20,670 nt of DNA, taken from a virus. The stretch covers positions 1 through 20,670 of the IMG/VR virus record IMGVR_UViG_3300042897_000399. One strand, written 5' to 3'. The notes under the pieces are model-generated. The model was not told the origin of the DNA. It worked only from the letters and a program-made list of their open reading frames with translations, and made no database searches. The translations under genes were made by a program, and so were the position numbers. Of the stretch, positions 4,339-15,620 are shown piece by piece. Numbering within the stretch: the first letter of the stretch is position 1; the number at the start of each line of letters is the position of its first letter.

Positions 4339-4368
4339 ACCTTAGAATACCCCCATAGATTTTGTCAA
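4339..4368 (-). promoter_or_regulatory. leftward promoter with consensus -35
   Basis: On the minus strand a perfect TTGACA (4368-4363) overlaps the stop codon of the gene at 4365-4874. With an 18-base spacer the -10 candidate is TAAGGT (4344-4339); TTCTAA with 15 bases is an alternative, and neither is strong. The position, at the end of one gene string and just before the small membrane-protein gene, suits an internal promoter for 4295 down to 316. Confidence 0.45.
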
Positions 4369-4874
4369 TACCCCCGCCGCACACCTCCCAACTCTGTGAT
4401 CTCCACATACACCACGCCCCTCGATAGCGGGGCAAGCTGTCGGAATAGTGTCGGGCTTAGGTCGATGACGCGGCTCTTGCTATTCCATGGCTTGCGCAAG
4501 GCCTTCCACGCGCCGTGGCAATAGTCGCGCACGACGGCGATGACACACTTTGTGCCACCGCGTACACACACCCGCACGCGGTACGGCTTGGCGCGGTAGG
4601 TAAACGTGCCGACGGCGGCATAAAGCACAAGCTCGCCGCCGCGCCCGCCCTGCTTGACGCTCTTATACGGCGTGCAGGTATCGGTACGCCCATACACCGA
4701 CACCCCCTTCGGGCATCGTGCGCCGTACCACGTAGCAACGCCAGACATAGGTACGCCGTGCGGCGTACGGGGCGGCTCCTCAGCCCCCCGCACGCCCTCG
4801 ACATAGCTCAGCATGATGCACGCAACGATGAGGGCAGCCATGCCGTAGGCCGCCCACACCGCCCTGCTATGCAT
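4365..4874 (-). CDS. secreted RlpA/barwin-like double-psi beta-barrel protein (169 aa)
   Basis: A signal peptide or membrane anchor is visible at residues 1-30 (VWAAYGMAALIVACIMLSYVEGVRG). The mature part starts near AEEPPRTP and contains SGVATWYGARCPKG at about 44-57, then KPYRVRVCVRGGTKCVIAVVRDYCHG at about 96-121, then SRVIDLSPTLFRQLAPLSRGVVYVEI at about 134-159. The order ATWYG ... VxxxD ... IDLS..xFxxLA..xxGVVxVxI is the signature of double-psi beta-barrel proteins (RlpA, barwin and expansin relatives). These bind or cleave cell-wall polysaccharide. Asp117 is the likely conserved acid, and six Cys suggest disulphides. ATG at 4874 follows GAGG by six bases and overlaps the upstream gene by 8 bases. 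Its presence in the early block is unusual. Confidence 0.75.
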   Translation of the reverse strand: MHSRAVWAAYGMAALIVACIMLSYVEGVRGAEEPPRTPHGVPMSGVATWYGARCPKGVSVYGRTDTCTPYKSVKQGGRGGELVLYAAVGTFTYRAKPYRVRVCVRGGTKCVIAVVRDYCHGAWKALRKPWNSKSRVIDLSPTLFRQLAPLSRGVVYVEITELGGVRRGY

Positions 4875-5046
4875 AGATAGCCTCGTCAATCTCCTTCACA
4901 ATCGCATCGCGCTCGTACCATAGCCCTACGATCACGAGCTCAATGAGCGCCGCCCGTTGCGGGGCGGCCTCAATGAGCTCGCCAGATAGGTCAGACATAG
5001 CGCGGGTAATGCCGTCAATCTTCTTGCACTTTTCTTCGAGCGTCAT
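4867..5046 (-). CDS. small hypothetical protein (59 aa)
   Basis: A short, mainly helical protein (MTLEEKCKKIDGITRAMSDL ... IELVIVGLWYERDAIVKEIDEAIYA) with no motif I recognise. It may form a helical hairpin or dimer through the hydrophobic middle (ALIELVIVGLW). The ATG at 5046 overlaps the preceding stop as ATGA and has GAGGCGG upstream. An in-frame reading back to 5094 would intrude into the paralogue gene and is not needed. It ends by overlapping the RlpA-like gene, so the two are probably co-translated. Confidence 0.65.
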   Translation of the reverse strand: MTLEEKCKKIDGITRAMSDLSGELIEAAPQRAALIELVIVGLWYERDAIVKEIDEAIYA

Positions 5047-8722: not shown

Positions 8723-9112
8723 ATGTCCAAGGCAGTTTCACAATACGTCAATCGCTGCAAGGACATCCTCGGACTGGGGCATTGGACAGTCACGGTAGGA
8801 GCTGGCGCTCCGCCTGACGATTCCTGGGCTGACGTAGAAGTCAGCACGAACCTGTACAACGCCACCATCCGCTTCTCTCCAGATCTCTGGAAGCAGAAGA
8901 AGGACGAGATCCGACGGGTGGTAGCGCACGAACTCATCCACCTGCACCAGGCAGGGGTGGAGCGTCTCGTTGAGGCGTTGGAAGAGTCGCTGGGATCAGC
9001 GGCGCATAGCATCCTCAGCCACGTATGGGATGTTGAAACGGAGCGAGCGGCTGACTCGCTTTCGGTACCTTTGGCTCGGCTCTTGCCGATGCCGAGCATA
9101 GGAGAAGACTAA
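8723..9112 (+). CDS. HExxH zinc metallopeptidase-like protein (129 aa)
   Basis: Residues 65-76 read RVVAHELIHLHQ, a zincin HExxH motif with zinc-binding His69 and His73 and catalytic Glu70. The later ETERAADSLS (about 105-114) offers an acidic third ligand, as in ImmA/IrrE and SprT-like gluzincin folds. The N-terminal half (HWTVTVGAGAP ... YNATIRFSPDLW) looks like the beta-strand region typical of small phage and toxin-associated HExxH proteins. It could mature a virion protein, cut a host regulator, or have lost activity. The start at 8723 has AGAGGGGG upstream, and the stop overlaps the next start by one base. No helix-turn-helix domain is fused to it, unlike many ImmA proteins. Confidence 0.8.
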   Translation: MSKAVSQYVNRCKDILGLGHWTVTVGAGAPPDDSWADVEVSTNLYNATIRFSPDLWKQKKDEIRRVVAHELIHLHQAGVERLVEALEESLGSAAHSILSHVWDVETERAADSLSVPLARLLPMPSIGED

Positions 9113-12428: not shown

Positions 12429-13244
12429 TTGCGTTCCGCAGCCTTATTGGTACTTCTGGTCGCAGTAAGCCTTGTTCTTCCAAGAATTGCACGTGCAGAC
12501 CAGCAGGAAATTTGGTGCGGGGGAACGAATCCGTACACGGGGGAATGGCAACTATGGGGTCCATTCTGGTGGGCGGACGAGCCAGCCGAAGAACTGTGGG
12601 TGAGACTGTGCCTACCAAATCGACCGTGGGATCCGATTCCGTGGGAACCGAACCCAACGCCGAGCGCGAGTGTGGAGCCTAGCCTTGAGCCGACACCAGA
12701 GCCTACACCCAGCCCGACGCCTGAGCCGACGCCAGAGCCAACACCAGAGCCGACTCCGACTCCGACTGAAGAGCCGACGCCAAGCCCTACGCCAGAACCG
12801 ACTCCTACTCCGACGCCTGAACCAACGCTACAACCAACTCCAGAAGCTACGCCAACTCCTACCAGAACTCCAACTGTAACTCCGAGTGAGCGACCATCAC
12901 CAACTCCAACGAGAACTCCAGATCCTAGTCCAGAACAAAGCGGAACGCCGACTCCAAGCCCGACTCCAAGCGAAGAAATCACTCCGAGTCCTGAACCAGT
13001 TCCAAGTCCTAGCGTGGCTCCTGAAGGGCCAGCGGACGCAGTAGCAGAGGCTGTTGGCGAAGCAGTCGCAGCAATTTCAGAAAGCATCGGGGAAGCGATT
13101 ACTGCGGTAACCACCCTAGGCAAAGATCTCTCGGTCGAGGAGAAAAAGCAGGCTCAACCAGTTGCGGTGGCAATCATCGTAAGCCAGGTAGCCCAAGCAG
13201 CAGCGGCTGCTGTCGCAGCCTCCAACACAGGGAGAAAGAAATGA
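12429..13244 (+). CDS. secreted or membrane-tethered protein with Pro-Thr stalk (271 aa)
   Basis: A signal peptide of about 23 residues ([22 protein letters not shown]) ends before DQQ. A small Trp-rich domain with two Cys (C30 and C61) follows, then a long Pro-Glu-Thr-Ser repeat stalk at about 75-205. The C-terminal helix is Ala-rich ([27 protein letters not shown]), and a hydrophobic stretch near the end ([22 protein letters not shown]) precedes RKK. Function is unknown. The position before a holin-like and an endolysin-like gene suggests a lysis accessory (spanin-like or wall-contacting), but spanin features are not clear. The TTG at 12429, with GGAG seven bases upstream, is the only start that gives the signal peptide. 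Confidence 0.65.
12690..12890 (+). repeat. Pro-Glu-Pro-Thr coding repeat
   Basis: A short unit (GAGCCGACGCCA and variants, encoding EPTP) recurs about fifteen times in the stalk region of the gene at 12429-13244. The copies vary at third positions, so the array is probably ancient or under protein-level selection rather than a recent slippage expansion. Confidence 0.75.
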
Positions 13245-13411
13245 TTTCACGCATTATTAACGATCTCGTCGGTGGATCATGGACGATCCTCGGTCTGCTC
13301 TTCGCGGTAGTCGTACTGCCAGACGGGGCAACAAAAGACACCATGTCAGTAATCTTCACGGGTCTGACGCTAGTGTGGTTCCTTACTGGACCACTACGCT
13401 GGAAGGATTAA
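13241..13411 (+). CDS. two-helix small membrane protein, holin candidate (56 aa)
   Basis: It encodes 56 residues with two hydrophobic segments: about 13-27 ([15 protein letters not shown]) and about 34-50 ([17 protein letters not shown]). They are separated by a short polar loop (DGATKD), and the C-terminus PLRWKD is charged. Two helices with a polar hairpin and a charged C-terminus are the hallmark of class II holins, which form pores at a set time. The ATG at 13241 overlaps the previous stop as ATGA and has GGGAG ten bases upstream. Placement between the stalk protein and the endolysin-like gene supports a lysis role; a small accessory membrane protein is the alternative. Confidence 0.7.
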
Positions 13412-13414
13412 CGA

Positions 13415-14560
13415 ATGCAATATCGGGTCAAGTCGCAACTCTACTCTGACGCAGAAGCCCAGCAGAAGGGCGCCAAGCAGATCCTTGACGACTGCACGTG
13501 GTCGTCCTGTGCTGCTGCCGTTTCGTGGGCCTCTGGCTACACGGTAGATTACAGCGCGGCCCAGGGCGTAGAGGCAATGAAGAAGGTCACTGGTCGCAAG
13601 GATGTGCAGGGCAAGTCCGATAACGGCGGCTCTCTCGCTGAGGCTGCGAAGGTGATCGCCCACCTAGGTGGCAAGGCTCGCTACGCCAAGTCGTGGGAGG
13701 AGGCTGTCGCCGCCGCCAAGAATGGCGCTGCGCTGATGGTCTGGGTCCAGCAAGCAGTCGAATACCCAGCAGGCGTGAAGATCTCGGCATGGCATGACCG
13801 CTGGCACAAGTGGTGGTCAAAGAATAAGCCAGAGAAGATCAAGCTCGGCTACGGTCATATGACGTCGGCTGGCTGGTGCGAGGATCACGGCTGGCAGTGG
13901 ACTTGCCCTACGCGCGATGAGAAGGTAGCCTCCGAGAAGTTCGGCGTGCCAGTCACAGAGGCGCAACTCCGCCAGATCGCCAACAGCAAGGTCAAGGCAA
14001 AGAAGGTCAAGGCTGACTTCAAGTGCCTGCTGATCGTCACGCACCCAGGCAAGGTTGCCGCACCAGCGCCAGTCGCTGTGCCAGTGGCTGCCCCCGCTCC
14101 AGTGGTCGCGCAAGTGGCTCCCACAATCAACGTAGAGGCACCTAGGAAGCCCGTAGAGGCTAAGAAAGTAGAATCTGGTACTAAGACACCATCCGAGTTG
14201 GATGTGGCTGTAAAAGCCCTGGAAAAGGTCGACTGGGCATCAATCGGAGCAAAGGGTCTGGCTCTGGCAGGAAACGCGGCTGAGGCCGCTAAGAAGGAGA
14301 AGACCATCATGGGTAAGATTGGCGCATGGTTCAAGTACATCACAGACAACAGCAAGATTGACGAGATGCTGCTTGATGCAGTTCGGACGTTCCTCACCGT
14401 GTCGATCTCGGTCGCACTTGGTTTGGGCATCCCCCTGCTTGACATTAATGGCGGCGACTTCCGCACCATCGTAAGCGCAGGCCTGGCGTCCGCACTCCAG
14501 ATTGTTGTGAAGGCACTTGACCCAAGCTCCACGGACTACGGCGTTCAGAAGAAGAAGTAA
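13415..14560 (+). CDS. endolysin-like cysteine peptidase domain fused to holin-like domain (381 aa)
   Basis: N-terminal domain (about 1-210): DDCTWSSCAAAVSWASG at 25-41 looks like the catalytic helix of C39/papain-fold peptidases (Cys27 or Cys32 as nucleophile), with GYGHMTSAGW at 145-154 giving His148. A CHAP- or C39-like peptidoglycan or protein hydrolase is inferred. Linker (about 213-250): Ala/Pro/Val-rich, with VAAPAPV repeats. C-terminal domain (299-381): LLDAVRTFLTVSISVALGLGIPLLDI and FRTIVSAGLASALQIVVKALDPSSTDYG. This two-helix pattern ending in an [LN]-[DN]-P-x-x-x-x-[FY]-G motif is seen in actinophage holins. An in-frame ATG at 14309 has AAGGAG nine bases upstream, so the holin-like part may also be made alone (83 aa). 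Fusion of both lysis functions in one polypeptide is unusual. Confidence 0.75.
   Translation: MQYRVKSQLYSDAEAQQKGAKQILDDCTWSSCAAAVSWASGYTVDYSAAQGVEAMKKVTGRKDVQGKSDNGGSLAEAAKVIAHLGGKARYAKSWEEAVAAAKNGAALMVWVQQAVEYPAGVKISAWHDRWHKWWSKNKPEKIKLGYGHMTSAGWCEDHGWQWTCPTRDEKVASEKFGVPVTEAQLRQIANSKVKAKKVKADFKCLLIVTHPGKVAAPAPVAVPVAAPAPVVAQVAPTINVEAPRKPVEAKKVESGTKTPSELDVAVKALEKVDWASIGAKGLALAGNAAEAAKKEKTIMGKIGAWFKYITDNSKIDEMLLDAVRTFLTVSISVALGLGIPLLDINGGDFRTIVSAGLASALQIVVKALDPSSTDYGVQKKK
14298..14311 (+). promoter_or_regulatory. internal ribosome site and start within the endolysin-holin gene
   Basis: The bases around 14294-14311 read AAGGAG-AAGACCATC-ATG, an ideal ribosome site in frame with the long protein at residue 299. 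It is as good as the site at the main start and lies exactly at the boundary before the holin-like membrane domain. Confidence 0.6.
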
Positions 14561-14988
14561 TGCCTGAAGCGTGGGTCTATGTCGGTGGGACATTTGACCT
14601 CTTCCACTACGGACACGCAAAGTTTTTAGAAGAGTGCAGTAAGCACGGCAAGGTCATCGTCTCTCTTAATACCGATGACTTTGCTTCCCGCTACAAGAGA
14701 GAGCCAATCCTGTCGATTGGCGAACGGATGGAATCGCTTCGGGCGTGCAAGTGGGTTGATGATGTTTGCCTCAACATTGGGGACGAAGACAGCGGCTACA
14801 CCATTGACTTCCTCAGCAACCTAAACATCAAGCACATTGCCCACGGTGATGACTGGACTGGGGAAGCCCTGATGGGGCAACTGGGGATTAGCCAGGAGTG
14901 GCTAGACCGCAAAGGCATCAAGATGCTGTACATCCCCTACACCGCTGGCATTTCAACAAGCGACATCATTGGGAGAATCAAGGGTTGA
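14560..14988 (+). CDS. cytidylyltransferase (glycerol-3-phosphate or related, TagD-like; 142 aa)
   Basis: The signature GTFDLFHYGH (10-19, the nucleotide-binding HxGH), GDDW near 97-100 and YTAGISTSDIIGRI near the end match the TagD/GCT family (RTxGISTT in bacterial enzymes). Such enzymes join CTP to a phosphorylated alcohol or sugar, for example making CDP-glycerol for teichoic acids. The length (about 130-140) agrees and no key motif is missing. The substrate cannot be read from the sequence. The start overlaps the endolysin stop as TAATG, and the gene runs into the glycosyltransferase-like gene with a TTGA overlap, suggesting the pair acts together to decorate a polymer, glycan or virion part. 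Confidence 0.88.
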   Translation: MPEAWVYVGGTFDLFHYGHAKFLEECSKHGKVIVSLNTDDFASRYKREPILSIGERMESLRACKWVDDVCLNIGDEDSGYTIDFLSNLNIKHIAHGDDWTGEALMGQLGISQEWLDRKGIKMLYIPYTAGISTSDIIGRIKG

Positions 14989-15620
14989 AGCTCGCGGTCA
15001 TCATGACCATGTACGGTCGACACGAAAACACCTATCCGCTCATTGAGCGAGTCCTGACCTCTAGCAAGATTCCAGATGAGATTTGGATTATGTGTGAGGG
15101 GCAAGATGACTTTGATGTTGCGAGCGCGGCCCTAGACAAACTCTGGCGCGTGAACGTGACCCCCATCCTCCTGCCAACGCCACGAGATGGCGACCGATAT
15201 GCGGTTATCCCATACTCCAACAAGATTAACTACGTGCTGGACAGGACGAAGGCGGATGCCATTGTCTATGTGGACAATGGCTCCATGCCCTCAGAGACCA
15301 AGTTTGAGGTCATGCTCAAGGCTCTACTTGACAACCCAGATTGGGGCGCTGTATACTGCACGCAGCAGCGCACAGGGTACCGAGAAGAAACCAATGGAGC
15401 AGACCGCATCATTCCCGATGGGTACGGAATCCTAAACTACACCCAAGTGATGCACCGCCCAACAACCGTCCGATGGACAACGGACATGGGCAAGGCAAAC
15501 CCAGATCTTGCAGACGCAACCTTCTGGCGTGACCTTGGCGGACCATTCCATCCAGTTGACGGCCAAGTTGTCCACGATACCCACCACATGAATTCGGCTG
15601 CTGCCGAAGGAGTTATCTAA
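14985..15620 (+). CDS. glycosyltransferase-like protein, GT-A fold (211 aa)
   Basis: The N-terminus LAVIMTMYGRHENTYPLIERVL...PDEIWIMCEGQDD is the strand-helix start of family 2-like glycosyltransferases, where a sugar nucleotide binds. Residues AIVYVDNGSMPSETKFEVM offer an acidic metal site (a DxD-like position here reads VDN), and the end has DGQVVHDTHHM, where a His often completes the metal site. The protein is shorter than most bacterial family 2 enzymes (about 250-330), so activity should be checked. The start is TTG at 14985 (GGAG nine bases upstream, TTGA overlap); ATG at 15003 is an alternative. It follows a cytidylyltransferase, so a CDP-activated donor is possible. Confidence 0.7.
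   Translation: MKLAVIMTMYGRHENTYPLIERVLTSSKIPDEIWIMCEGQDDFDVASAALDKLWRVNVTPILLPTPRDGDRYAVIPYSNKINYVLDRTKADAIVYVDNGSMPSETKFEVMLKALLDNPDWGAVYCTQQRTGYREETNGADRIIPDGYGILNYTQVMHRPTTVRWTTDMGKANPDLADATFWRDLGGPFHPVDGQVVHDTHHMNSAAAEGVI

Follow-up and report, generated by a model that had tools for sequence, protein, structure and literature searches.

A candidate two-start lysis gene in a virus record: a papain/C39-type peptidase linked to a two-helix holin-like module

Can one viral gene supply both a probable wall-cutting enzyme and a membrane-piercing protein, which in phages are usually the products of two genes? The question is raised by the window analysed here, i.e., the whole of the IMG/VR virus record IMGVR_UViG_3300042897_000399 (20,670 bases, probably a fragment), in which an earlier note had described a peptidase-like domain, a Pro/Ala linker and a holin-like C-terminus in a single 381-codon frame with an internal start. 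That frame is present and all the coordinates given for it are correct (Table 1); the in-frame ATG does have an AAGGAG nine bases 5' to it (spacer AAGACCATC, 9 nt), and the Pro/Ala linker occupies roughly residues 210-260. On balance, we favor the view that this gene serves lysis by joining a C39/papain-type endolysin, through a flexible linker, to a holin-like module of two helices, and that translation can also begin at the boundary between the two domains.

Table 1. Features of the candidate lysis gene and the two genes 5' to it
Feature	Position	Strand	Basis
381-aa fusion gene (stop included)	13415..14560	+	ORF calls; 77 distinct fused relatives
Papain/C39-like cysteine peptidase domain, residues 1-210, candidate endolysin	13415..14044	+	AlphaFold2, Foldseek, alignment, L102 Pfam match
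Pro/Ala-rich linker and helical stretch before membrane module	14045..14293	+	Synonymous-variation scan
AAGGAG, putative internal ribosome-binding site	14294..14299	+	Sequence; kept in fused relatives; same AAGAAGGAG in split relatives
Internal ATG and 83-aa two-helix holin-like module	14309..14560	+	Hydropathy; stand-alone homologues; low-confidence AlphaFold2 model
Secreted-type protein	12429..13244	+	Hydrophobic signal at the N-terminus, repeat rich in Pro/Thr/Glu, hydrophobic helix at the C-terminus
56-aa protein, second holin/antiholin candidate	13241..13411	+	Two hydrophobic segments; adjoins fusion 5'

The separate examination of the two domains proposed in the earlier note yielded a clear fold for the first and no profile match for the second. 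As modelled by AlphaFold2 (pLDDT 92 for residues 1-210), the N-terminal ~210 residues are a clan CA papain/C39-fold cysteine peptidase, whose closest solved folds in a Foldseek search of the PDB are staphopain, the pseudomurein endoisopeptidase PeiR, the Bacillus anthracis C39-like peptidase 3erv and the ComA peptidase domain, each at a probability of 1.00 with TM-scores of only about 0.4-0.6; the closest viral models are uncharacterised proteins from uncultured Caudovirales. The N-terminal domain of the window protein has no direct match in the Pfam, PHROGs or NCBIfam libraries, including Pfam Peptidase_C39_2 (PF13529), and a profile search of the PDB gave a single weak, irrelevant match. The relative L102 does match Peptidase_C39_2 just below the gathering cut-off of 24 (E 2.3e-4, 22.2 bits), over a stretch running from the catalytic Cys onward. 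Cys27, Cys32 and His148 had been named as the hallmark residues of the domain: in an alignment of 44 relatives Asp25, Asp26, Cys27 and His148 are unchanged throughout, whereas the position of Cys32 is occupied by Ala or Leu in several. Since Cys27 and His148 are invariant and Cys32 is not, the catalytic dyad is likely Cys27/His148. We infer that this domain cleaves peptidoglycan, i.e., that it is a candidate endolysin.

The C-terminal module contains the two hydrophobic segments and the LDPSSTDYG end that had been claimed for it; a match to a holin profile above the cut-off is lacking, both for the module (Pfam, PHROGs) and for the whole protein (NCBIfam). The first segment, FLTVSISVALGLGIPLLDI, has a mean hydropathy of 1.96 and the second, TIVSAGLASALQIVVKALD, is a weaker helix at 1.40; with its 83 residues, these two segments and a lysin candidate adjoining it, the module fits the general make-up of a holin, a small protein that has at least one transmembrane helix and lies in a lysis cassette. 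Its positively charged flanks suggest that both ends lie inside (N-in/C-in), and AlphaFold2 renders it, at low confidence, as two long helices. The corresponding slot in the relatives holds a graded series of related proteins, and its most distant occupant, that of L227, has sub-threshold matches to holins, viz., a PHROG holin (E 0.033), Phage_holin_3_1 (0.064) and the r1t holin (0.15). We infer that the module is a holin.

The relatives searched comprise more than 200 metagenomic loci, many of which are overlapping views of one contig; among the distinct peptidases 77 are fused to a two-helix module via a Pro/Ala linker, 31 are split from it and 1 is cut by a contig end. In the split relatives the module is a gene of 79-82 aa with its own start, which begins at the stop codon of the peptidase and in most cases follows a AAGAAGGAG or AAAGGA ribosome site. 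One split group displays the junction ACGAAGAAGGAGAACCTATGAGC, with AAGAAGGAG lying within the last peptidase codons and the ATG overlapping the TGA stop; because the module starts where the peptidase stops, AAGAAGGAG is the only evident ribosome site in this group. Likewise, in another split group with the peptidase/module junction TGAAAGGAAAAGAAATGAGC, the junction site is the only evident ribosome site of the separate module gene. Fused genes carry AAGAAGGAGAAGACCATCATG (window type) or AGAAAGGAAAAGGGCATG (L016 type) at the domain border; judged by sequence, this border site is of the same kind as that of the split genes, but in frame and without a stop. Well-supported branches of the unrooted peptidase tree force at least two changes between the fused and split states, and as the tree is unrooted the order of fusion and splitting is left undecided. 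Different module types sit in the same slot behind the peptidase. Against 50,697 phage records no tblastn match to named phages was recovered for the fusion, the terminase, the L102 peptidase or several module types, and the portal gave weak Gordonia and Salmonella matches only. The sole host clue is the relative L141, which lies on a 6-kb contig binned, possibly wrongly, as a Rhodobacteraceae MAG.

The earlier note had regarded relatives devoid of both the AAGGAG and the internal ATG as evidence against an internal start; the SD and start are kept in the relatives, and the split relatives use the same type of site. Given also the clear fold of the N-terminal domain, neither outcome named in that note as refuting was obtained, and its interpretation is borne out in part. 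A linker cluster was counted as having a site when the duplex energy of its best ATG/GTG start in the 25 codons around the border was -4.6 or lower. By this measure an SD with a start is present in 16 of 20 linker clusters, as against 16% of random 25-codon windows from other genes (binomial p of 5.5e-10 if the clusters were independent, a value that overstates the strength because they share descent); a comparison with random whole-linker segments gave a combined p of 1.4e-4, with independence again overstated owing to common ancestry. The site persists through differing peptides, viz., KKEKTI-M, KETT-V, KEHG-V, KVKGAPAK-M and SKGDQT-M. Where the start column holds Val, it is encoded by GTG in 18/18 unique tails, with GTG making up 30% of Val codons (30.5% of Val elsewhere in the C-termini of eight representatives), a result weakened because a recent Met-to-Val change gives GTG by default. 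In four of the 20 clusters the border has no good site, two of these having a strong one further upstream; the L194 and L190 clusters have poor sites. The module class of L171, L173, L175 and L182 is devoid of the border start and has a strong site (TAAGGAGGT or near) with an ATG further upstream, such that in L175 and L182 TAAGGAGGT precedes an ATG for a predicted product of 141 aa; in L213, whose module is of a different kind, AAGGGAG precedes an ATG for one of 70 aa. A per-sequence synonymous codon null for AAGGAG was not rejected (median fraction 0.36), as the motif is fairly likely from codon choice alone once the Lys-Glu residues are present. No internal promoter or RNA structure was found near the internal start. 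Taken at the sequence level, the putative ribosome site and its start are conserved across diverged relatives, to a strength limited by their shared ancestry, and the fused gene probably also yields a free 83-aa holin by internal initiation.

Between about 14120 and 14290 (about residues 236-290) the relatives show very little synonymous variation: the lowest 9-codon window of the linker has 15 synonymous changes where 57 would be expected. We considered this constraint as proof of the ribosome site and rejected it, because the suppression spans the whole linker, and thus fails to single out the site, and accompanies low protein variation. In L083 the peptidase is only about 30% identical, and the linker and module are near-identical. 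We read the linker as a probable recombination junction through which the two halves are exchanged; modular recombination has been proposed at the junctions of mycobacteriophage lysins (PMC3314691), and Bxz2 gp11 and the lysin A of Gordonia phage RedRaider resemble the present system in such modular exchange at conserved junctions (PMC3314691, PMC12821328).

As to how such a gene might operate, we tentatively propose, short of calling it probable, that a single two-start gene runs lysis by making a holin-tied lysin and a free holin whose ratio provides the timing, with the holin half exchanged via the conserved linker and the internal start preserved each time. In this scheme, whose activity, topology and timing are predicted, the membrane hairpin of the full-length product would hold the peptidase on the cytoplasmic side, and the short product from the AAGGAG-ATG would be the free 83-aa holin. 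Most likely, mixed oligomers of the two would then gather in the membrane, so that upon opening every lysin would already be at the lesion and could get to the wall on the ~80-residue linker, or once this linker is cleaved; lysis timing would depend on how often initiation occurs at the internal start relative to the first one.

This proposal must be weighed against other accounts of the same gene. It is unlikely that the full-length fusion alone is made in meaningful amounts, as a membrane-anchored lysin with its own pore former, and that the AAGGAG-ATG either survives from an ancestor in which the module had its own gene or arises incidentally from Lys-Glu codons: the chance favoring of AAGGAG by those codons and the poor sites in a few clusters fit such an account, but the retention of the site in most clusters despite different peptides, the restriction of start codons to ATG or GTG, and the strong site at a new position in the L175/L182 class speak against it. 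Somewhat doubtful, too, is the notion that the module acts as a membrane anchor or an antiholin, the role of holin falling instead to the 56-aa two-helix protein encoded just upstream. That protein recurs in the inspected cassettes, fused and split (L102, L068, L115 and L116, with split relatives among the cassettes inspected), and the second helix of the module is only weakly hydrophobic, both of which favor this notion; yet the module is a gene in its own right in the split relatives, and other two-helix proteins replace it in the same slot, as happens with holins.

The peptidase half admits of a different role as well, namely the membrane-associated processing of a protein from the phage or its host rather than cleavage of the wall, which we deem quite improbable. 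Compatible with it are the third catalytic residue position, which reads DPT in the L102 (split) and L083 types and CPT in the window type, the lack of any wall-binding domain found on the peptidase, and the failure of sequence searches to find a named lysin relative. Nevertheless, C39-like peptidase domains are part of lysin A in both mycobacteriophages and Gordonia phages: the N5 domain of lysin A (Bxz2 gp11) was also matched by Payne and Hatfull to the B. anthracis C39-like peptidase (PMC3314691), and RedRaider has a protease C39 lysin A (PMC12821328), though in these phages the holin genes are separate, unlike in the window, and no sequence match to named phages was obtained here. The presence of a wall endoisopeptidase among the nearest solved folds and the adjoining holin-like genes likewise argue for a lysin, as does the near full-length 41-kb relative, in which no second wall hydrolase was found among the larger proteins scanned, save a weak RlpA-like DPBB match.

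Lysin-holin fusions and internal starts each have precedents; the lysin-first order and the combination of the two look new. The TpeE family protein of Clostridium sporogenes (WP_163247266.1) also has a holin and an endolysin on one polypeptide, but in the opposite order to the window gene, with the holin N-terminal, the endolysin C-terminal and one transmembrane helix, and it belongs to a bacterial non-lytic export context; an internal start is not reported in the accessible portion of that source (PMC9527704). Conversely, the mycobacteriophage Ms6 gene for LysA contains an embedded in-frame lysA241 with a consensus ribosome site, so that one lysis gene gives two products (PMC3111421), and internal starts are known in other endolysins too (PMC12203907); in all these, what the internal start yields is a truncated endolysin rather than a membrane protein (PMC3111421, PMC12203907). 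In size and layout alone, the module may be likened to LysF1a of the F1 mycobacteriophages, which is described as a two-helix, N-in/C-in holin-like protein of 88 aa, against 83 for the module, encoded, unlike the latter, by a separate gene (PMC13056207). Within the open-access literature searched, no gene was found that encodes an endolysin followed by a holin and has a separate start for the holin inside its frame. How folded lysins cross the membrane when the holin opens is still debated; in a naturally occurring fusion that places the lysin ahead of the holin, the enzyme would not have to find the lesion by diffusion, and related phages that carry these parts as two genes offer a ready comparison of tethered versus separate parts. 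A published survey of lytic proteins dropped endolysin candidates containing transmembrane regions (PMC12596118); a lysin-holin fusion family would therefore be discarded by that filter, which constitutes a blind spot.

Among the neighboring genes, the secreted-type protein has a counterpart at the same position in the 41-kb relative, whose genes for a capsid protein and a Dit tail protein mark it as siphovirus-like, and the 56-aa protein has a weak sub-threshold match to the TcpD family membrane protein. A gene for a cytidylyltransferase-like protein starts at 14560, overlapping the fusion stop, and is followed by genes for a glycosyltransferase-like protein, the terminase and the portal, such that the first two (14560-15620) separate the lysis gene from the terminase. 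Elsewhere in the window, 4365-4889 (- strand) encodes a small protein with an N-terminal hydrophobic segment, whose counterpart in the 41-kb relative is the one weakly matching RlpA-like DPBB (lytic transglycosylase), making it a possible second lysis factor. Finally, 8723-9112 encodes a SprT-like metallopeptidase with a HELIH motif, just below the Pfam cut-off.
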